Origin: Fabrea salina
Taxonomy: Eukaryota > Ciliophora > Heterotrichea > Heterotrichida > Fabreidae
Length of the DNA stretch: 64,000 nucleotides
Direction of reading: 5' to 3'
Assembly (NCBI GenBank): GCA_022984795.1
Contig: JALIHJ010000009.1
Span: forward strand, 124,001 to 188,000
Shown here: positions 16,208 through 26,542 of the stretch, piece by piece
Numbering within the stretch: the stretch's first letter is position 1
How the letters are laid out: every line of letters begins with the position of its first letter
Notes under the pieces: model-generated
Told to the model about the DNA's origin: nothing
What the model saw: the letters and a program-made list of their open reading frames with translations, nothing else
The model's database searches: none
Program-made: the position numbers and the translations under genes

Positions 16208-17776
16208 ATGGATTTGGCTGAAGCCTTTTGCAACCACCTAAAAGACAAAGGTTACCAGGGCAGCTTGGACTCGGAAGAATTTACACAAGTCATGCAAGGA
16301 GTAGCTAAGCCTATTTTTCAGTTTCTAGTCAACAACTGGAAAACTCAAGAAGAAGCTGAGTTTATTAGAGGGAACTTACTTGTGCACTCAAATTCTTCCA
16401 CTGAAATTCCAGAAGTCAACACTAGTTCTCACGAGCAGCTACTTCAAGAGATTTCTAGCAACCAACTAGAAATCGGCAGACTCCAAAAACAGCTTAAAAT
16501 CAAAAAGCTAAGGAAATCACTTATCAATGCTTACAGCCAAAAAATCACAAAGGTTACTGGTAAGCTAGAAGACTACACTTTGCAGCAAGAAAAGCAAGAA
16601 AGCTCTTTCCCAAGCCAAGACTCATTAAATCAAGTAAGTGAAAGACTCGCTTACTTAATTTCCAGAAGCAAGTCTTCACTTAACTCCTCAAACATCAAAG
16701 GAATCCTTGACTCCTTAGGGGTTTCGCTCCAAAACAAACCTTTGTTCGACTACTTAACAAAAGAAACCCAAAACGCCCACAAAGAAGTTAAAAAACTAAC
16801 AGAAAACTTCAAACCCCAAGAACAAATGACTAAGTTCGGCATGGAAGTTGTCAAGAAAGAAAACACTTACCAAGTCAAAACACTCGACACCGATAGAGTT
16901 ATTGACAAACTCTCCCAAAGCATTGAAAAAAAACGCGAAGAACACTGGAAAGCCTTTTTAAAAGTAGAAAACTTAATAGAACAGACTGAAACTACCCGCA
17001 ACAAATTCAAAACGCTTTATGAAAGAAAAAAAACCAAGTCAAAAAAGAACCAAAATATTGAAAAACTCCACGAACTAGAACTAAAAGTAGCTACCCTCAA
17101 AGCCCAGAACGCCGAACTAAAAGCCAACATAGAGTATATAAACCAACTCAAAAAAGACCACAAACAAAAACTCCTAATTATTAAAAACCAGCACTTAAAA
17201 CTAGACCAACCCTCCCAAGAAAAACAAAAACTCTCTGAAAAAGTCCACGAAGTCATGACTCAAAACACAAACCTCAGAAGGAACCTTACTAAGTACAAGC
17301 TACGCATAGAAAAGTTCATGCAAGAACACATTGTTTCTTTAAGAACTAACTTGCCCGACTTGCTCAAGCCCTTATTTACTTGCGTCATAAAAGAAACACA
17401 GGAATTCTTGCAAGCCAGTGACTTTCTAAAGCCCTTAAACGTTCCTAACCCTTCTTTGCCCGAAACAACTGTTAGCTCTATTCCTAGTCCTACAAGCCCT
17501 CACCTTTTCAAAGTCTACAAAGCTACTGGACTCCCTGTGTACTTTACACCTGAATTTTTAAAGTTTGTCCTTGAGAAGTTAGTTACTGAGGAATCCGAGG
17601 AGTTCTTTGTAGAAACAAAACAAGAAAAACAACCTAGAAAAACCATAGCTATCGACAGACTCAACCAAATCAACGAAGCCCTTGACTACGAAGAGTCCAA
17701 ACTAACAGAAATCCAAGACAAAGAAACTAACTCTTGGAAGTTTTCAAGCTTCATGTACAAAAATGAATTTAGTTAA
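16208..17776 (+). CDS. HAUS5: HAUS5-like augmin complex subunit
   Basis: Encodes 522 residues. The N-terminal 60 residues (AKPIFQFLVNNW ... EEAEFIRGNLLVH) match the HAUS5 N-terminus, which in animals reads IWAYILQHV...KKIRGNLLWY. Long coiled coils fill about residues 70-380, and near 435 a short segment with ATGLPVYFTPEFL resembles the KLGLPPG region of HAUS5. Augmin binds existing microtubules and recruits gamma-tubulin to branch new ones, in spindles and possibly in the cortical arrays of large ciliates. It is a single exon. The stop codon overlaps the stop of the convergent CHAT gene. The match is by pattern; another coiled-coil microtubule protein is the alternative. Confidence 0.65.
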   Translation: MDLAEAFCNHLKDKGYQGSLDSEEFTQVMQGVAKPIFQFLVNNWKTQEEAEFIRGNLLVHSNSSTEIPEVNTSSHEQLLQEISSNQLEIGRLQKQLKIKKLRKSLINAYSQKITKVTGKLEDYTLQQEKQESSFPSQDSLNQVSERLAYLISRSKSSLNSSNIKGILDSLGVSLQNKPLFDYLTKETQNAHKEVKKLTENFKPQEQMTKFGMEVVKKENTYQVKTLDTDRVIDKLSQSIEKKREEHWKAFLKVENLIEQTETTRNKFKTLYERKKTKSKKNQNIEKLHELELKVATLKAQNAELKANIEYINQLKKDHKQKLLIIKNQHLKLDQPSQEKQKLSEKVHEVMTQNTNLRRNLTKYKLRIEKFMQEHIVSLRTNLPDLLKPLFTCVIKETQEFLQASDFLKPLNVPNPSLPETTVSSIPSPTSPHLFKVYKATGLPVYFTPEFLKFVLEKLVTEESEEFFVETKQEKQPRKTIAIDRLNQINEALDYEESKLTEIQDKETNSWKFSSFMYKNEFS

Positions 17777-20700
17777 TAATTAGAAGAATGCGTTTTTTTG
17801 GGTTTGCTTGAGTTTTTCTTTTTAAGTTTTTTCTTTGATTTTTTAGGTTTTTTCTTTTTGGGTTCTTTAGAAGGTGGGTCAGGTATTTCTACAGAGATTG
17901 CAAACCCGTCAGAAAAACTACTGCTGGACTTTTCTAGGTTTAAGTTGTACTGCAATTCCTCCATGTTTTTGTTTTTAAGTCGTTTAGCCAACTCAACTAT
18001 CTTCCCGGGCAAGTTCATGCAGCGCTTAAGAGGTTCACAGTCAGTAAGAACTCTGGCAATGTCTAAGTCGGAGTTGTTGCACACTAGTTCTTCTCTAGTA
18101 AGGTTCCTTTCTAAGGTAGCCATGAGCAAAGCTGCAGACTCTAAACTGTCAAGAGGTTTAAGGTTCAGTTTGGAGCACTCTAACTTAAACTCGACAGGGC
18201 ACGACAAAACACAAAAAGCTATTCCACACTCTTGGTTGAGTATCTGCAACAAGTTAGCAAAAGATTCGCCAGAGGCCCTTATTAAATCTTCGCAGTCGTC
18301 CAGAATGATAAGCATGTCTTTTTCTTCAAAAGATTTTCTGATATCTACTTCTTCTTCCACCAGTCCTTCGTTCATGAGTTCCTTCATGAATTCTGAAATC
18401 GTTGACTTTTTGCGTAAACCAATGTGGAAAATTCCTTGCTTGAAGTAGTTATGTGCGTTCAAAAAGTACCCTACACGCTTCAGAAGTGAACTTTTGCCTA
18501 TGCCTTTAACTCCATTCACATGGAGTATTTTTCTGTGCTTCAGGGCAGAAACAGCTTTGTACATCACGCACTTTCTGCCTACAAAGGCGTTTTCACGTTT
18601 TTTAATGTTGGTGGGGGGCTTTGGTTTGGAGGTGTCAAAGAGGCTTCCGGACTGAAGTCTTGCTTGGGAAGACAGTATTCCTACTTCTTCGTCACTAAAA
18701 AGTGCTGACTTGGCATCGCCCAAAAGAACTGGGCCTTTTCCTTGGTAGTTGCCTTTGCGGTGGGGTATGTGTTCAAAAACTACTTTGTTTTCTAAGGCGA
18801 AGTAGTCAGACACGTTTTTAGCAATACTCCAGGCTTCTCCTAAACTTTTGCCTTTGATTAAGTGTTTGTAGAATTCGTCACAGAACTTCCCTAAAGTCTT
18901 TTCTATCAAAATCTGAACTTGAGTCAGGTAGGGCGAAGTCAAATAGTCTTTGTAATCAAAACAAACCACATTAGGAACAAGTGACTCTTCGAAAACATAC
19001 TGGCCGAGTTCAAAACTCTGTGGTGTTGCAAACACTATTAAGTCCACGCCGTGTTTCCTAAGTCCGTCACCTAGCAACTGGACAATCTCTTCAGAGTTAA
19101 GTACTAAACTAGAACTGTCTTCTTTTTCAAGAACCAAACACTCACGTTTGTTGGAATAAGAACTGATGTGGAGAACTCTGCAGCCTTCACTTAAGTAACT
19201 TTTAATTTTGTTTTCAGTGGCTATGTCAAAGTGGATGTTTATGAGTTTTTGCTCCTTCATCAGGACTCTCGACAAGTTCTCTCTGAAGTTCGAAAAAAAG
19301 TTACAAATGTTTTCAGGTTCGTAAACCTCTCCGTTTTCAATCTCTACCAAAGAAAAAGCCCTCAGCACCAGAATTAAGTTTTGGTTCTTTTGACGAATTT
19401 TGTCAAATAAAAATTCTAGCTTGTCGTTAGTTTCTTGTTCTGCTTTTCTGTCTTTGTACTTCTTAGCACGGTTCCTAGCAACGTTCCAGAGCTTCTCCGC
19501 TTCGATTAAGTTGCCCATGTCTAGGTTGTACTCACCCAGCATTTGCAGAGCTCTGATTTCAAGTCCCCTTAAGTTCTTTTCTCGGAAGATCTTTAGCGCT
19601 TCATTTATGTCTTCTTTAAACGAAGAACCTAGCTTCTTAGTGAAGAGTCTCCAGTCACACAAGCCCATTAGTGCCCTTGCCTTTCCTAAACGGGCTTCGT
19701 ACTGGTTGTGTTCTTTGAACCTTTGGACTGAGTCCAAAAAGCATTTTTCTATGAACTCCACTGAGACTTCTAAACTCCTTTGTGAGCTCAAAAAGATTTC
19801 TTTCAGAATTAAGGCTTTCAGCAAAAGACCCTCTGCTTGGTAGTCTTTCATCTTTTTAATTGAAAAGTCGTTGCAGGCTTTGTCAGCTTCTTCTTTAGCT
19901 TTGTAAAGGTCTTTTTTGTGGTAAAGCAGTATTCCTGCCCTTGTAAGACGGCACTTTAAGTAGAGTTCATTGAAGTGCAGGGTTTTCAAGCAGTTTCTTG
20001 TTTGGTCCAAAGCTTCAAAAGCTTTGTGGGTCTTTTTGAACACAAGGTAAAAGCAAGTCAAGCACTGTCCAATGTCAAAAACGCAGTTCCCAACTACTGA
20101 CTTGCTTTCATCTTCCAAGTTCAAGTAGAGTTTGGTCATAGTGTCTTTGTCCAAAAAGTGCCAAAAGTTCTCTTCCATCATTAATAGCCTTTTGTGGATC
20201 GAAAAGTGCTGTTTGTTGCAAAGAATGCTTTGCCGCAACTCTTTGATGTCATCAATATGGTGAATTTTAGTTTGCCAAGTAGTTGTTGGGGCCAAGGCAC
20301 TAGAGTTACTTAGGGACTTCATAACTTCTGAAACCGCCACTCCTTCAGTTTTTATAAGTTCGAACAGCAAAGCTGAAGCTAACTTTGACAAAAACATAAG
20401 GCAGTCAAAAGCGTTTTGTGGGTTGTAGTTGTTTTCTTGGAGCATGAACTCCTTAATGCTGTTTGAAACCTTAAGTACTTGGTTGTTGGACTCTGAAAGC
20501 CAAATTTCAGAAACTTCTTGGTTTTGGAGTTCGTTTTGCTTGTCCATCACAAGTTCAAGTATTTTTTTCCACTTGTAAGGCTTTCCGTGACACAGGTACT
20601 TAAGGTCGCCTTTGTAGACGCCTTTAGGCATAAAAGAAACCAAGGACAAAAAGTCTATTGACTCAGGTAACCTATTGCGGAGGTAAAGCATTGAAAGGTG

Positions 20701-22695
20701 CAAAGACACATTTTCTTTGGCAGTGCTGGTGGTGCTGGACTCTGTTTCTGCTAGGACTTCGCTGGCAGGCCTTTCCTTGAGCAAAGGAATCAACTTCAGC
20801 AAGTCAGAAGTGTTAGTTCCAGTCCTCCGAACTATTTGCTTTATTTTGTCTTTTTCGGTGCGCATAACGCTTCTAGGAAGCACTCCTCCAATGAACTTCA
20901 AAATAGCATTTCTTTCTGTGAATAAGTTAAGTTTGTACCTGGAGGACTGGTCTAAGTTCAGGGGGTTCTGGCAAACCACCCAAAACTTAGGGAACGAAGT
21001 CCTTTCTAGCATATAAGTTATTTTTTGGTTGAAGTGTTCTTCGTGGCGCTTAGCTATTAAGTCCAGGTTGTCAAGTATCACTAGAACTTGTAAACGGTCC
21101 ATCGTTCTGCAGAGTTCTTCTCTAGACTTGCTCCAGGGGTTTTTGAGTTCTTCAGCTAGCATTTGGTTTATTTTCCCTGCGTTTGTGACGTCTTTGCAGT
21201 CTAAGTAAATAACTCCGTGCTTAAAAAGCTTCCTTTCACAGGCATACCTAGCTGTTGTTTTGACTAGCAGTGTTTTGCCTACGCCTAGTTCCCCGTCTAC
21301 TACAACTAGTCTGTTTTTTCTTGTGTTTTCAAGGAGGTCTATCATTTCTGAGTTCCTAGCTAACATCTTAGTCCTTACTAAAGGGGGTTTGAACTCAAAG
21401 TCCCACTTGCTGTTGAGGATCTTAGGTCGTTGTTCGGTTCCAGTGAACACAGACATGTGCTTAACTTTTTGGTCTTTGCAGAGAAGTTTGAACTTAAGAC
21501 CTTCGTTGTGGGGAGCTTCGGGGGAGCAACAACAAATCACCCACTTGCCTTCTTGGATTTCATCTTCACTCGGAACTCTTTTGGGATCGTAAGTGGACAA
21601 AAACTCCTTGGCCCAGGAACAGTCTAGCTTGTGGATGAAGCTTTTGTTGTTGCACTTGCAGTCAGGAGTGTGCTTTGTGTGGTCGTGTTTGGAGGTTTTC
21701 CAGGCACAAGTTGTTTTGTGAATGTGAGCGCAGCAGCAAGCAGGTTGCATGTTGCTTTGTTCGCTTTCTACTAAACTAGAAGCTTCTTCAAAAGCTTTCA
21801 GAATACTTTTACCGTTGAATATTTTTTTGTAAAAGCTGCAAGCAAAAGTAACGGCAGCGTCATCTAAGATCTTGCACTGATCGTGGATAGAAATCACGCA
21901 CTCTATTCCTGCGTCCAGAAAGACGTCACCTATTGCTTCTGAAAAACAAGCACTCACTATAGCAATTTTAAAACCTTTGTTGCACTGGGATATGGCTTTA
22001 TAGAGTCTTTCTTTGGTTATTTCGTCACAACGCCCTGTCATCTTGCTGCTTTCAAAAGCAAGCACAAACCCTTCCTTGTCTTGGTAATAGCCGTGGCAGC
22101 TAATATGCACTATGCTAGGGTTGCACTCAAGAGCTTCTCTGAGGTTTTCTAGAGTAGCTGTGGAAAACCTCATTCTCGGGTTGATATGCCCTATTTCAAA
22201 GGCCTTAAGTAGTTTGTCCCTTTCTTTTTCGAAGTCCAAGTTCCAGTCGTCACAAGGGCTGTCTTTACCTTTGTAGCGCCTTACCAAAGGAGCTGCGTAA
22301 AGCATAGCTATGTCTACTTGTTCTCTCGACTTAACAGGTGAGTTTTGGGCCTCTAAAAACATAGTGTAGTTTTCAATGGGTCTCAAAGAGTTTTCGAGTT
22401 CAGAAAGTTTTTTGAAAACACAAGCGAACTGGTTTGCTTCGCCATTGCGAATTTTAAGCGTGATTGGAGAAGTAATAGGCACTTTGTCTTCCAGGTTAAC
22501 TTTGGAGTAACAACCGAGACTTAGGTCTAGGAGGAGTAAAACTGGGTTAAATAGGCACGCGTTATTCTCTTTAAGCAGCTCTAGAACTTCCAAGTAAGGA
22601 ATGGAGTTTTGGAAGAGGTATTTTTCTGGGAGCTTAAATGCGTATTGTTCGGAAGGGCCTAAACTTCCTAAGTCGTAACTATACTTAATCCACAT
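17773..22695 (-). CDS. CHAT-protease/STAND NTPase with duplicated CHAT-NTPase architecture
   Basis: Encodes 1,640 residues as one exon. In order: N-terminal region (1-120); CHAT caspase-like protease (about 125-310) with the His in ISCHG (H201) and Cys in VSACFS (C250); a Cys/His-rich segment (about 320-400); an NB-ARC/STAND NTPase with P-loop GELGVGKT (468-475) and Walker B LVILDNLD; winged-helix-like and TPR-like helices (about 670-1095); a second CHAT-like domain (about 1100-1330) where the His aligns with Y1180 and the Cys with T1224, so it should be inactive; FVGR and a second NTPase with P-loop GVKGIGKS (1395-1402) and Walker B MLIILDDCED; and a lysine-rich tail. CHAT-STAND proteins in bacteria and fungi sense a trigger, oligomerise and cut a target, often in cell-death defence. 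The role here is inferred, and no substrate such as a gasdermin lies in the window. Confidence 0.88.
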   Translation of the reverse strand: MWIKYSYDLGSLGPSEQYAFKLPEKYLFQNSIPYLEVLELLKENNACLFNPVLLLLDLSLGCYSKVNLEDKVPITSPITLKIRNGEANQFACVFKKLSELENSLRPIENYTMFLEAQNSPVKSREQVDIAMLYAAPLVRRYKGKDSPCDDWNLDFEKERDKLLKAFEIGHINPRMRFSTATLENLREALECNPSIVHISCHGYYQDKEGFVLAFESSKMTGRCDEITKERLYKAISQCNKGFKIAIVSACFSEAIGDVFLDAGIECVISIHDQCKILDDAAVTFACSFYKKIFNGKSILKAFEEASSLVESEQSNMQPACCCAHIHKTTCAWKTSKHDHTKHTPDCKCNNKSFIHKLDCSWAKEFLSTYDPKRVPSEDEIQEGKWVICCCSPEAPHNEGLKFKLLCKDQKVKHMSVFTGTEQRPKILNSKWDFEFKPPLVRTKMLARNSEMIDLLENTRKNRLVVVDGELGVGKTLLVKTTARYACERKLFKHGVIYLDCKDVTNAGKINQMLAEELKNPWSKSREELCRTMDRLQVLVILDNLDLIAKRHEEHFNQKITYMLERTSFPKFWVVCQNPLNLDQSSRYKLNLFTERNAILKFIGGVLPRSVMRTEKDKIKQIVRRTGTNTSDLLKLIPLLKERPASEVLAETESSTTSTAKENVSLHLSMLYLRNRLPESIDFLSLVSFMPKGVYKGDLKYLCHGKPYKWKKILELVMDKQNELQNQEVSEIWLSESNNQVLKVSNSIKEFMLQENNYNPQNAFDCLMFLSKLASALLFELIKTEGVAVSEVMKSLSNSSALAPTTTWQTKIHHIDDIKELRQSILCNKQHFSIHKRLLMMEENFWHFLDKDTMTKLYLNLEDESKSVVGNCVFDIGQCLTCFYLVFKKTHKAFEALDQTRNCLKTLHFNELYLKCRLTRAGILLYHKKDLYKAKEEADKACNDFSIKKMKDYQAEGLLLKALILKEIFLSSQRSLEVSVEFIEKCFLDSVQRFKEHNQYEARLGKARALMGLCDWRLFTKKLGSSFKEDINEALKIFREKNLRGLEIRALQMLGEYNLDMGNLIEAEKLWNVARNRAKKYKDRKAEQETNDKLEFLFDKIRQKNQNLILVLRAFSLVEIENGEVYEPENICNFFSNFRENLSRVLMKEQKLINIHFDIATENKIKSYLSEGCRVLHISSYSNKRECLVLEKEDSSSLVLNSEEIVQLLGDGLRKHGVDLIVFATPQSFELGQYVFEESLVPNVVCFDYKDYLTSPYLTQVQILIEKTLGKFCDEFYKHLIKGKSLGEAWSIAKNVSDYFALENKVVFEHIPHRKGNYQGKGPVLLGDAKSALFSDEEVGILSSQARLQSGSLFDTSKPKPPTNIKKRENAFVGRKCVMYKAVSALKHRKILHVNGVKGIGKSSLLKRVGYFLNAHNYFKQGIFHIGLRKKSTISEFMKELMNEGLVEEEVDIRKSFEEKDMLIILDDCEDLIRASGESFANLLQILNQECGIAFCVLSCPVEFKLECSKLNLKPLDSLESAALLMATLERNLTREELVCNNSDLDIARVLTDCEPLKRCMNLPGKIVELAKRLKNKNMEELQYNLNLEKSSSSFSDGFAISVEIPDPPSKEPKKKKPKKSKKKLKKKNSSKPKKTHSSNY

Positions 22696-22719: not shown

Positions 22720-23445
22720 TTATTTATAATATAAGCTTGGAGAAACTCCACAGGTGTCCCTGTAAGCTTTGAGTCTTTTAAGACTGTAGTGCTGAACTAA
22801 GTCTTCTTTACTAGAAGTACTTTCCACTTTTAAGGCTTCACACAGAAGCAGGAACTCCTCGAAATCTTCGATTTCAGCATAGAACCTTTCAGCAACTTTC
22901 ATACACTCAATTAGCTTTTGGTTAGGAAACTTAGCGAAATAGTCTTCCCAAATGTCAATTATAACTTTTCCCAAAACTAAGTCCCTTGCCTTTGACTTGC
23001 CCAGAACTGCTTCTGGTTGAGGAAGCAGTTCTATTAAACACCAAGGATTGCTTTTGTAGGTTTCCCACAACTCTTTGGGGTCTTCTATTTGTAGTTTTTC
23101 CCATATCCAACTTTCTAGTTCTCCGTGCAAGGCAAGTGAGTCTTCGTTTTCAGTGTGCACTGAGTCGTCCAATGGACGCAGGGCGTGTATTTGAACTGGC
23201 ACAATGTAAGTGCTAGGCCGGGTGCTTCTAGTGAAGTTGTTTCGCGAAGCCAGTATAAGCCAACTAGGAATTTCAGTGTGGTGTGCGGGTTCGGGGTCAT
23301 CAGCTATGCTGGGTTCAAAAGCCCTAGGTACTTGGTGCTCGCCCTCTTCGATGCTGTCGGGATGTTGGCACCGCATCCCTCTTGGCGAAGAAATGTAAGG
23401 ACGTTCTATTTGAGTTCTTTCTTCCCCAATGTCTAATATTTCCAT
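22720..23445 (-). CDS. Protein of unknown function
   Basis: Encodes 241 residues from the ATG at 23445 (MEILDIGEE). A longer frame exists upstream but would run into the start of the MORN gene, so the shorter start is preferred. Residues 1-100 are polar and probably disordered; residues about 110-240 look like a compact helical domain rich in W, E and L (WIWEKLQ, WETYKSNPW, IIDIWEDYF). I do not recognise the family. It has no signal peptide or membrane span. It lies 24 bases upstream of the CHAT-STAND gene on the same strand and 20 bases from the divergent MORN gene. Confidence 0.65.
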   Translation of the reverse strand: MEILDIGEERTQIERPYISSPRGMRCQHPDSIEEGEHQVPRAFEPSIADDPEPAHHTEIPSWLILASRNNFTRSTRPSTYIVPVQIHALRPLDDSVHTENEDSLALHGELESWIWEKLQIEDPKELWETYKSNPWCLIELLPQPEAVLGKSKARDLVLGKVIIDIWEDYFAKFPNQKLIECMKVAERFYAEIEDFEEFLLLCEALKVESTSSKEDLVQHYSLKRLKAYRDTCGVSPSLYYK

Positions 23446-23465
23446 TATTAACAGTAAGATAATCC

Positions 23466-24722
23466 ATGGGACAAGCAAGCTGTTCCAGCTGTGAATGCGG
23501 AAAAGACCAGTCAATTGAATTCAGTGTAGAACAAAAAAACTTCCAAGAACACCAACTAGTTCCTGAAATAGTTCTTCCTTCAGAAAAGGTAACTCCTCAA
23601 CCCACTCCCCAAGGCAAAGTTATGCCTCTTCGTTTGGTTTTGAAACTCCAATCTAAGTGGCGTGCTTATAAAGAAAGAAAGCAGTACCTTACTTACAGTA
23701 GCCAAATCGACTACATAGTGTATTTTTCAAACCAAGAACTCATGGAAACTGTTAAGCCAGGAAGACTAGGCAGTACTCAAAGAGTAAATGCTTTGCCTTA
23801 CAAGTACAAAAGTGCAGGAGTGTACATTGGAGAGTGGAAAGGAGGCTTCAGGGACGGTTGGGGAATTATGCATTGGAACAACGGGTCTAAGTACGAAGGC
23901 GAGTGGGGTTGGGGAAGACCCTTTGGCAAAGGAAGGTTTACTTTTTTAGACGGAGACAAGTTTGAAGGTGACTGGAGAGACTACTACATTCCTCAAAAAG
24001 AAATTACAGAAAAAAACAACCAAGATGGGTTTCTGTGGCTTTACAAAAAGCAAAACCAACTCTTAGAAGAAAACAACCTGGAGCCTTTGTGCAAAGACAA
24101 CAAAAAGCAAGTTGAAAGCATTTACGAAAAACTAGTTGACATCAGGGCTTACGTTAAAAAAGTAGAGTCTAGGGTAATTAAGGCAGGAGTTCCTTCTCAC
24201 TTAGTAACTTCTAACTGCAGAACCTTTTCCCAAAAGTTTTACGAAGACGGCTCTGTTTACATTGGGGAGTGGAAAAACGGAAGAAGAAGTGGAAGTGGAA
24301 AACTCGTAGAAAAAGACGGAACTGTCTATGAAGGTGAGTGGAGAAACGATATACCTTACGGGCACGGAAAAAAGACCTTTTCCAACGGAACTTATTACAT
24401 AGGTGGAATCAAAGGCAGCTCAAGAGAAGGCTGGGGAGAGTTCTTTTGGGACGATGGGTGCTTTTACGTAGGAGAATGGGAAGGAAACTGCATGCACGGA
24501 GTAGGGGAGTTTGTGTGGCCTGACAAACGCACCTACAAAGGGGAATGGGAAAATGCCAAGATGCATGGGTTCGGAATCATGATCGGCAAAAAGGGCCACA
24601 AGTACGAAGGCTACTGGCGTAAAGGAAAAAGGCACGGAAAAGCCTACACGAAAGACAGCCAAGGAAAGGTTTCTCACGAAGAATGGCTTAAAGGCAAAAG
24701 GATTATGTTTAATAATTCGTAA
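23466..24722 (+). CDS. MORN-repeat protein with N-terminal acylation signal and IQ-like motif
   Basis: Encodes 418 residues. It starts MGQASCSSCECG, a strong myristoylation plus palmitoylation signal. An IQ-like calmodulin-binding stretch (LVLKLQSKWRAYKERK) lies near residues 58-73. Three MORN repeats follow (about 118-170: YIGEWKGG, YEGEWGWG, FEGDW), then a helical linker and about six more from residue 260 to 405 (YIGEWKNG, YEGEWRND, YVGEWEGN, YKGEWENA, YEGYWRKG). MORN proteins mark membrane-cytoskeleton junctions and basal bodies in protists. In this cell a cortical role is likely, though inferred. It ends 11 bases before the Miro start. Confidence 0.88.
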   Translation: MGQASCSSCECGKDQSIEFSVEQKNFQEHQLVPEIVLPSEKVTPQPTPQGKVMPLRLVLKLQSKWRAYKERKQYLTYSSQIDYIVYFSNQELMETVKPGRLGSTQRVNALPYKYKSAGVYIGEWKGGFRDGWGIMHWNNGSKYEGEWGWGRPFGKGRFTFLDGDKFEGDWRDYYIPQKEITEKNNQDGFLWLYKKQNQLLEENNLEPLCKDNKKQVESIYEKLVDIRAYVKKVESRVIKAGVPSHLVTSNCRTFSQKFYEDGSVYIGEWKNGRRSGSGKLVEKDGTVYEGEWRNDIPYGHGKKTFSNGTYYIGGIKGSSREGWGEFFWDDGCFYVGEWEGNCMHGVGEFVWPDKRTYKGEWENAKMHGFGIMIGKKGHKYEGYWRKGKRHGKAYTKDSQGKVSHEEWLKGKRIMFNNS

Positions 24723-24733
24723 TGTAATAATTT

Positions 24734-26542
24734 ATGAAGGACTCCATAAGAGTGTTGATAGTAGGAGACGAGAAAGTTGGGAAAACTTCTTTGATAAAAG
24801 CCTACACCTCTGACCAACTGCCTTCTGAGTTGCCAAGTGTACACCCCCCAGTTAAGTTCCCTAAGGAATTGAGTGAAGCCCACTGCGATGTTACTATGAT
24901 TGACACCTTTTACAGGCGCGACAGAGAGGCAGACGGCACTATTGAAGAAGAACTCTGTAGAGCTGATGTGGTGTTAGTTGTGTATGATGTAACTCGGCCT
25001 GAAACTATTGACCGACTAAGAGCTTTTTGGCTGCACTTTATAACAAGCACTTGCGATCTGCCTATTATCCTTGTAGGCAACAAAGCCGACCTCAAACAAG
25101 AAAACGGAAACTCAGAACAGTTCGAAGACATAATGAGGCCACTTGCTAAGGAGTACAGACAGTGCGAGATCATCATTGAAGTTTCTGCTAAAAAATTCAC
25201 AAACTTAAGTGAGTTATTTATGTGCATGAGCAGGGTAGTTTTGTACCCCTCCCCTCCTTTATACGACTCAGTTTATAAAGAACTAACTCCAAGCTTCGAA
25301 AAAGCACTTAGACTTATATTTAGGCGCTGTGACCAAGACAAAGATTTCCACCTTAACGACAAAGAGTTCTTGGAACTCCAAGAAGAAGTTTTTGCAAACC
25401 AACTAGAACCCCTGAAGTTGGATTGGATTAAAGAACTCATTCAGGAGCAGTGTGAGCACGGAATAACAGCTGAAGGAATCAACATTTGGGGGTTCCTGCA
25501 CCTTAACAAAATGATGATCCAACGCCTCAAAATTGACGTGTGCTGGCACATTTTGTCCTACTTTGGGTTTGACAAGAACCTTGAAATTCCAATAGAGTAT
25601 CCCCTCAAACTTAAACCTTCCCAGTCCGTAGAACTTTCAAGAACGGCTATTACGTTTTTAGTGTCAATATTTAAACAATTCAGCCGGGGAGAAGTTCTTC
25701 CTTTCAATGAAATAAAAGAAATATTCAGCACAGTCAGCACTGCTCCTTGGGAACCCTCTAGAAGTGACGACCAAGCATGGCGCAAGATTGAAAAAATAGT
25801 GCCTTTAACTCCGGACTTTTGTTTGGACTTGCATGCTTGGTTAGCACTTTGGCACTTACTTACGCTTCAGGACTTTTCAAACACCCTTAAGTACCTAGTT
25901 TACATAGGGTTCCCTTTCAACTACTCAGAGGCCTTTTTCTTGACTGGAGAAAAAGACGTGATGAAGGTTTCTTCCAAAAAAGTGCTGTGTGGAGTAGTAG
26001 TTGGAGATACTGGAGTGGGCAAGTCTAAATTTATTGACTGCTTTTTAGGAGACACACAAACTGAAGCCAGGCCTTCCAGCACCCTGAGGTGGGCTTGCAA
26101 AGTAATGAAACAGTCTGCACAGCCTTGGGACTCAAGGTACTTAGCTCTGGTAGAGGTTCCTCTTATTGACTTACACAAAATGCCAGAAGTCCTGCCTAAG
26201 TGCGACGTTTTGGTTATGCTTACTGACAACTCAACCCAAGCTAACCAGTACCTAGAGTGCCAAATAAACGTTTCACCCTACATTCCAAAAATAAAGGTAG
26301 TAACTAAAAGCGAGGAACCCCTGCCAAATCATGTTGATATGGAAGCCCAAGTTCCTGCAGACTTGTACTCTGAAGTATTCAACATAGCTGTGAGGCCTTT
26401 AAGCGGTCTGGACAAAGACTTCCGAGAAAGTTTGATTAAAAAGCAAAAAGAAAAACTAAACTCCAGCCTTATAAGGGTAGGAGTGGCTGTTTCTGTTGTT
26501 ATAATGGGGTTCTTCACTCTAAAAAAACTAATTCCAAAGTAA
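24734..26542 (+). CDS. RHOT: Miro, mitochondrial Rho GTPase
   Basis: Encodes 602 residues, normal for Miro. The first GTPase has P-loop GDEKVGKT (11-18), an unusual switch II (MIDTFYRR), and NKAD. An EF-hand with a complete calcium loop (DQDKDFHLNDKE, near 200) is followed by a second, degenerate EF/ELM unit. The second GTPase has P-loop GDTGVGKS near 424; its remaining motifs are weak, as in other Miro proteins. A single membrane anchor closes the protein (about 578-597, then KKLIPK), placing it in the outer mitochondrial membrane facing the cytosol. It links mitochondria to motors and to calcium signals. Domain order and length make the call firm. Confidence 0.95.
   Translation: MKDSIRVLIVGDEKVGKTSLIKAYTSDQLPSELPSVHPPVKFPKELSEAHCDVTMIDTFYRRDREADGTIEEELCRADVVLVVYDVTRPETIDRLRAFWLHFITSTCDLPIILVGNKADLKQENGNSEQFEDIMRPLAKEYRQCEIIIEVSAKKFTNLSELFMCMSRVVLYPSPPLYDSVYKELTPSFEKALRLIFRRCDQDKDFHLNDKEFLELQEEVFANQLEPLKLDWIKELIQEQCEHGITAEGINIWGFLHLNKMMIQRLKIDVCWHILSYFGFDKNLEIPIEYPLKLKPSQSVELSRTAITFLVSIFKQFSRGEVLPFNEIKEIFSTVSTAPWEPSRSDDQAWRKIEKIVPLTPDFCLDLHAWLALWHLLTLQDFSNTLKYLVYIGFPFNYSEAFFLTGEKDVMKVSSKKVLCGVVVGDTGVGKSKFIDCFLGDTQTEARPSSTLRWACKVMKQSAQPWDSRYLALVEVPLIDLHKMPEVLPKCDVLVMLTDNSTQANQYLECQINVSPYIPKIKVVTKSEEPLPNHVDMEAQVPADLYSEVFNIAVRPLSGLDKDFRESLIKKQKEKLNSSLIRVGVAVSVVIMGFFTLKKLIPK

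Follow-up and report, generated by a model that had tools for sequence, protein, structure and literature searches.

Separase is a eukaryotic CHAT-related protease that carries a pseudoprotease part and helical repeats and that is not known to have P-loop NTPase domains. In the caspase-8 and cFLIP couple, a live protease is governed by a dead homologue, and the two are encoded by two genes. The joining of CHAT to NLR/STAND switches has been described for fungi and bacteria, and in fungi, the genes of some NLR-type proteins with a CHAT protease are located close to gasdermin genes (PMC12881547, PMC10197012). Here, we focus on a gene lying in a window of 64,000 nucleotides, by which we mean the whole stretch of DNA that was analysed. 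Its product is predicted to bring together, in a single chain, a live CHAT protease and a pseudoprotease copy of it, each of them followed by an NTPase.

This gene consists of 1640 codons that remain open under the standard code, with two in-frame TAA codons immediately upstream of the ATG and the stop at 17773. The protein successively displays CHAT1, a Cys/His-rich module, a NACHT-type NTPase 1, helices with a TPR part, CHAT2 and a STAND-type NTPase 2 (Table 1). The order CHAT, NTPase, TPR-like, CHAT-like, NTPase given by the original prediction is thus borne out, with CHAT, NACHT and nSTAND over their Pfam cut-offs, CHAT2 recognised by profiles, and a TPR part that is weak. A chance or low-complexity origin of the domains was ruled out by Pfam, by Smith-Waterman scores with shuffles, by hhalign and by the pairwise z values. 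An artefactual fusion of gene models was also discarded, because a paralogue located on a separate contig shows this layout too, again in one continuous frame. The genome amounts to 18.33 Mb in 103 contigs, and the window is part of one of them, C92, which ends on both sides with CCCTAACA-type telomere repeats and therefore resembles a whole macronuclear chromosome. We take this type of repeat to be that of heterotrich ciliates, and the ciliate origin that had been claimed from the sequence fits with it.

Table 1. Position of the features of the CHAT gene and of its neighbours in the window
Feature	Residues	Position	Strand	Remarks
Whole gene	1-1640	17773..22695	-	1640 aa, single unbroken frame; paralogue elsewhere with matching layout
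N-terminal domain	1-90	22426..22695	-	22% identical to paralogue
CHAT1	125-318	21742..22323	-	Pfam CHAT; catalytic pair intact
Predicted catalytic His	H201	22093..22095	-	Gln in paralogue
Predicted catalytic Cys	C250	21946..21948	-	Asp in paralogue
Cys/His-rich module	319-404	21484..21741	-	15/17 Cys/His identical in paralogue
NTPase 1	436-600	20896..21390	-	NACHT/AAA_22 type
P-loop of NTPase 1	468-475	21271..21294	-	
Helical region	601-900	19996..20895	-	24-26% identity to paralogue
TPR-like helices	901-1095	19411..19995	-	TPR_12
CHAT2	1096-1330	18706..19410	-	predicted pseudoprotease; profiles and model fold
NTPase 2	1361-1570	17986..18615	-	nSTAND/NB-ARC type
P-loop of NTPase 2	1395-1402	18490..18513	-	
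Tail	1571-1640	17776..17985	-	14% identity to paralogue
HAUS5/augmin-like subunit gene		16208-17776	+	Pfam E 2.7e-10
Candidate 264-aa frame		22720-23514	-	directly upstream of CHAT gene; no Pfam match
Miro-like gene		24734-26542	+	Ras and both EF-associated domains

In CHAT1, the Pfam CHAT model (PF12770) matches residues 156-312 with an E-value of 4.6e-14 (53 bits for a cut-off of 24), spanning positions 107-269 of the 289 of the profile. H201 and C250 align with residues that are invariant in six CHATs from bacterial plasmids, which had been selected on their match to CHAT1, and the profile of these six aligns with CHAT1 in hhalign over 155 columns, catalytic pair included (E 8.7e-18). CHAT1, which keeps the His/Cys pair, is thus predicted to be a live protease. 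When its profile is compared to the PDB sequences, the sole significant match is 8tl0, a SAVED-CHAT protein (E 3e-7), which is also the best PDB fold match of the CHAT1 model (E 2.4e-9); pLDDT blocks of this model range from 79 to 95 over residues 151-310, save for 57-74 at 201-230. In PADLOC, SAVED_CHAT gives a weak match that is limited to residues 179-299 (E 3.9e-4), and the SAVED domain is absent from the Pfam match list of the window protein. The NCBIfam scan of the protein gave no match near a cut-off; caspase_w_EACC1 was found at 192-256, with an E-value of 0.0013 and 18.3 bits of 140.

CHAT1 is followed by the Cys/His-rich module, whose conservation sets it apart from the rest of the protein. 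Indeed, the paralogue keeps 15 of the 17 Cys and His found within residues 315-404, whereas it keeps 14 of the 72 that lie outside this segment, and with 40 identical residues out of 80 aligned (50%), the module comes at the top of the regions compared. The retention of these 15 Cys and His suggests metal binding, and we thus consider the module as probably metal-binding. The strand that comes right after it (residues 402-406, in a block of pLDDT 88) corresponds in the alignment to the final strand of CHAT2 and to the ends of bacterial CHATs, from which we infer that the module interrupts CHAT1 just ahead of its final strand; it would thus apparently sit within the CHAT1 fold. It has no counterpart in CHAT2, its own model is of low confidence (pLDDT blocks 35-58), and neither Pfam nor the PDB returned a significant match for it. 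Searching the genome with the module alone, in six frames and ignoring introns, retrieved only the two paralogues, a number that is a lower bound.

The second CHAT is more remote. Pfam does not call CHAT on residues 1100-1330, and nothing significant was found when the CHAT2 profile was compared to the PDB sequences. Three kinds of sequence comparison nevertheless relate CHAT2 to CHAT, as does, less independently, its predicted fold. The Smith-Waterman alignment of CHAT1 with the CHAT2 region is co-linear and scores 52, a value reached by one of 500 shuffles; for the four CHAT1 x CHAT2 pairs that can be made across the paralogues, z lies between 3.7 and 6.0 (a score equalled by at most one of 300 shuffles), against 1.3 or less for 16 control pairs of a CHAT with an NTPase. 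In hhalign, CHAT2 aligns with CHAT1 over 174 columns (probability 96.2, E 2.3e-9) and with the six bacterial CHATs (probability 81.2, E 1.2e-5), while the control alignment of CHAT2 with NTPase 1 gives a probability of 1.0 and an E-value of 0.052. An HMM was also built from 85 bacterial and viral CHAT frames, namely the best matches listed and five viral loci, and used with a search space set to 1000. On the isolated CHAT2, the E-values of the whole stretch are 5.9e-7 in the window protein and 0.0018 in the paralogue, and those of the best single piece 0.0034 and 0.0088, respectively. In the context of the whole protein, the i-E-values of the pieces are 4.9e-4 in the window protein and 0.19 in the paralogue, which is weak.

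The model of residues 1090-1585 has a mean pLDDT of 74.9, with core blocks of CHAT2 at 82-95 and one at 74, and the five PDB chains that match it best all belong to 8tl0, the SAVED-CHAT structure (best E 3.6e-9). For both models, the CHAT fold is not independent evidence, because the input alignments are rich in bacterial CHATs. The idea that the 1100-1330 region could be unrelated to CHAT is contradicted by the profiles, which relate it to CHAT, and the model, whose best match is 8tl0, is consistent with them. At the catalytic positions, CHAT2 carries Y1180 and P1225 in place of His and Cys, and the paralogue Glu and Pro, so that CHAT2 is predicted to be a pseudoprotease devoid of the catalytic pair. 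At the level of the sequence, this agrees with the claim that one CHAT copy is active and the other dead, CHAT1 having the pair and CHAT2 lacking it.

Both NTPases look like apparently intact STAND-type NTPases, and each of the four NTPases that the two paralogues contain shows, by eye, a P-loop and a Walker B. For NTPase 1, Pfam NACHT gives an E-value of 7e-15 and 55.7 bits over two stretches (the best one at 462-570) for a cut-off of 26.7, or 41 bits on NTPase 1 alone; AAA_22 gives an E-value of 3.1e-14, and NPHP3_N a weak match under its cut-off (E 5.4e-5). NTPase 2 is recognised by nSTAND1 at 1367-1531 (29.0 bits, cut-off 27.1) and by nSTAND6 over two stretches (30.5 bits, the best one at 1373-1440, cut-off 27.7), and when taken alone, it scores 23 bits against NACHT, which is below the cut-off. 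This means that the STAND assignment of the original prediction stands, with profiles of this type over their cut-offs, but that NTPase 1 is nearer to NACHT than to the NB-ARC that had been proposed. The two NTPases are related to each other (Smith-Waterman score of 88, reached by none of 500 shuffles; hhalign E 5.2e-16). The PDB fold matches of NTPase 2 are mainly AAA+ proteins, with the plant NLR resistosome 6j6i at rank 8 and the Dark apoptosome 3j9l at rank 34. In PADLOC, NTPase 1 matched mad8 (E 2.4e-6) and NTPase 2 matched PDC-S01 (9.5e-5), and there was also a match to TRIP13 (0.0011); we did not retain the PADLOC matches as specific defence systems and read them as generic NTPase or CHAT similarity.

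The genome also contains NACHT/AAA-like P-loop matches near the ends of contigs. Three tandem copies are found by the telomere of contig C7 (C7:1-10000), and further matches occur in the first 10 kb of 18 more contigs and in the last 10 kb of C70, the corresponding frames being mostly of 320-590 aa. The three C7 copies form one family, the one in the middle sharing 50% and 70% identity with its two neighbours, and they start with what appears, by eye, to be a mitochondrial presequence.

The remaining parts of the protein are less characterised. The first 90 residues have no Pfam match, their best PDB profile match is not significant (E 0.3), and their model shows pLDDT blocks of 29-72. STAND proteins carry an ARC/winged-helix part after the NTPase, a position that matches that of region 601-900 here; no profile came above its cut-off in this region, of which residues 601-760 are modelled as helix and coil only, with a low confidence (pLDDT blocks 35-63). 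TPR_12 is weak in the window protein (E 0.29) and reaches 1.1e-4 in the paralogue, under the Pfam cut-off. Finally, 16 of the last 40 residues of the tail are Lys.

The comparison with the paralogue is informative with regard to the dead copy. Searches of the 18.3-Mb genome gave one such paralogue, which lies on a different contig, shares the layout and is 28-29% identical. No third copy was found with either whole protein or with CHAT1 alone as a query, in six-frame searches that ignore introns and that make two a lower bound, and the search of the genome with the CHAT family model retrieved only the CHAT1 of the window. In the paralogue, CHAT1 has Gln and Asp at the catalytic positions and scores 22.8 bits against Pfam CHAT, just below the cut-off of 24, and on the bacterial CHAT profile (the 85-sequence HMM), it reaches 49 bits against 88 for the CHAT1 of the window; as for its NTPases, NB-ARC is over the cut-off and NACHT just under. 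It is thus predicted that, of the four CHATs of the gene pair, one is live, and that the genome holds a live/dead and a dead/dead version of the same protein. Identity between the paralogues is 32% for CHAT1, 30% for CHAT2, 32% for NTPase 1, 34% for NTPase 2 and 23% for the TPR part. The CHATs devoid of the pair are thus kept about as well as the NTPases, which suggests selection on the pseudoprotease fold. In the CHAT tree, both CHAT2 copies group together with a support of 100/100, and both have Pro for Cys; it is therefore probable that CHAT2 was already dead when the two genes diverged, while the CHAT1 of the paralogue presumably lost its catalytic pair later.

Relatives were sought beyond this genome. 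Among 72,556 plasmid records, 19 match, 18 of them at the CHAT part and one at the NTPase, and none of these matches covers 80% of the query. The protein search of phage records gave no match, and viral contigs contain no relative by whole alignment or by the Cys/His module, while a search for CHATs of bacterial type gave five loci in them. None of the 85 bacterial and viral CHAT frames has a second full CHAT, the closest being a weak partial stretch in one frame (i-E 0.65), and in six bacterial genomes, the 131 PF12770 matches all appear, on inspection by eye, to fall in separate frames; degenerate copies could escape both counts. A P-loop motif is present in 10 of the 85 frames, after the CHAT in eight of them and before it in two, as judged from a motif search only. 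On the Nostoc plasmid pn3 (3524-6705), a CHAT gene is directly followed by a NACHT gene, which is a two-gene form of the CHAT-NACHT pair.

The origin of the second unit was approached with trees, in which branches are long. A branch separates the four ciliate CHATs from the other CHATs in 62% of 200 bootstraps; the four ciliate NTPases are united in only 4% of 200, and two bacterial rows fall beside NTPase 2. In pairwise scores, NTPase 1 of the paralogue and NTPase 2 of the window reach 184, against 98 for the best of nine bacterial NTPases with any of the four, whereas NTPase 1 of the window scores 88 with its own NTPase 2 and 86 with one bacterial NTPase. An origin of the second unit by internal duplication of the CHAT-NTPase pair is thus plausible. 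The original prediction of a wholly duplicated unit stands in that the pair is present twice, but there is a single Cys/His module and a single TPR part.

Around the gene, the HAUS5-like gene overlaps the stop of the CHAT gene by its 3' end, tail to tail. On the other side, the far end of the 264-aa frame overlaps a MORN gene on the opposite strand, and the second half of the Miro-like gene has sub-threshold GTPase/P-loop matches and a terminal hydrophobic stretch. No effector gene was recognised next to the CHAT gene among the neighbouring frames scanned (HAUS5-like, MORN, Miro-like and two without a Pfam match), in agreement with the absence of a nearby target gene that had been noticed at the outset.

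The reading that we favour, with a probability of about one half, is that of a nucleotide-gated CHAT cysteine protease whose chain would also include a pseudoprotease partner. The chain would oligomerise once NTPase 1 has bound NTP, and CHAT2, held by NTPase 2, would pack on CHAT1 in cis or on the CHAT1 of a neighbour, this packing setting whether CHAT1 can cut. The Cys/His module may, from within CHAT1, sense the metal or redox state or shape the substrate cleft, and the dead/dead sister could co-assemble with the live protein, restraining it or acting as a scaffold. The substrate would probably be among the cell's own proteins, either a single one or a small number of them. The idea of an internal regulator is strengthened by the paralogue, whose CHATs both lack the pair yet are conserved, while the regulation itself is something that we infer. 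More tentatively, one can imagine a cFLIP-like pseudoprotease placed in the chain, each CHAT having its own nucleotide switch. Together with the dead/dead sister chain, it would make up an assembly of four CHATs, encoded by two genes and gated by the NTPases and by the metal-binding insert, in which each pair of chains would have a single live site.

Two other readings concern the role of the protein and need not exclude the nucleotide-gated protease mechanism. It could be a housekeeping regulator of signalling or of the cytoskeleton (cell cycle, cilium or cortex), making a separase-like use of its CHAT protease with no link to immunity. The few copies, the same layout in two diverged paralogues, the nameable neighbours, which are of housekeeping types, and the weak NPHP3_N match at NTPase 1 go in this direction, as does separase, an essential CHAT-related protease that is said to hold a pseudoprotease part; but separase is not known to have a P-loop NTPase, no particular process is indicated, and in so compact a genome the neighbouring genes are of little informative value. 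We hold this role for rather unlikely. The role in defence or death that had been proposed from the sequence seems unlikely to us. The protein would then be a CHAT-NLR receptor, as in fungi and bacteria, with invaders being sensed by the TPR region, the NTPases oligomerising and a pore-former, for instance a gasdermin, being cut by CHAT1. Its kinds of domains do match those of the gasdermin-linked fungal NLRs that bear a CHAT protease (PMC12881547, PMC10197012), the SAVED-CHAT filament is the best solved fold match of both models, and there is the weak PADLOC SAVED_CHAT match (E 3.9e-4). However, the genome-wide search for gasdermin (PF04598, introns ignored) gave one sub-threshold match, of 16.2 bits for a cut-off of 25, in a frame of 3954 aa, and no gasdermin-like gene adjoins the CHAT gene; the genome-wide search is a weak test, as PF04598 may miss microbial gasdermins. 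Immune receptors usually expand in copy number, whereas two copies were found here, as a lower bound, rather than an expanded and varied set. It is because no gasdermin passes the cut-off, no neighbouring effector is recognised and only two genes were found that the defence reading, thus left unsupported, was not adopted.

A last possibility would dispense with proteolysis altogether, the protein being a non-enzymatic STAND scaffold in which the CHAT1 residues were kept by chance, on their way to the state of the sister. Three of the four CHATs of the gene pair indeed lack the catalytic pair, but the CHAT1 of the window keeps positions that are invariant in the six bacterial CHATs compared, and its 88 bits on the bacterial CHAT profile contrast with the 49 of its sister, all of which makes this scaffold highly improbable. 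To come back to the nucleotide-gated protease, a live and a dead CHAT in one chain, along with a dead/dead sister, would offer a compact test of the control of a caspase-like enzyme by a pseudoprotease. In addition, the Peptidase_C14 model (PF00656, metacaspases and caspases) has no match in the genome at E-values up to 1, introns being ignored, and the present protein bears on the use of protease switches in eukaryotes that may lack metacaspases.

Our literature search, which was thin for subscription journals, gave no paper joining the CHAT domain with ciliates or Stentor, and none on tandem, inactive or pseudo CHATs or on CHAT-NACHT. Among the known systems, the fungal CHAT-NLR receptors resemble the window protein by the presence of a CHAT protease and an NLR-type receptor in one chain; the window protein differs by its two CHAT-NTPase pairs, its pair-less CHAT2, its Cys/His module and the lack of a recognised gasdermin. 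The bacterial CHAT-STAND proteins and CHAT-NACHT neighbours share the CHAT1 alignment with its catalytic pair and, in some frames, the succession of a CHAT and a P-loop, but there is no second full CHAT in any of the 85 bacterial and viral frames, where the window protein has CHAT2. SAVED-CHAT (8tl0) is the top fold match of both halves of the window protein, which has no Pfam SAVED domain. Separase is alike in being CHAT-related with a pseudoprotease part, and the window protein departs from it by its two STAND-type NTPases. As for caspase-8 and cFLIP, two genes are involved there, whereas here one chain holds both the live CHAT and a dead copy, and the sister gene looks dead throughout. Thus, CHAT, STAND and CHAT-STAND were already known, and what is new is the predicted live/dead arrangement with two NTPases, together with its Cys/His insert and its dead/dead sister.
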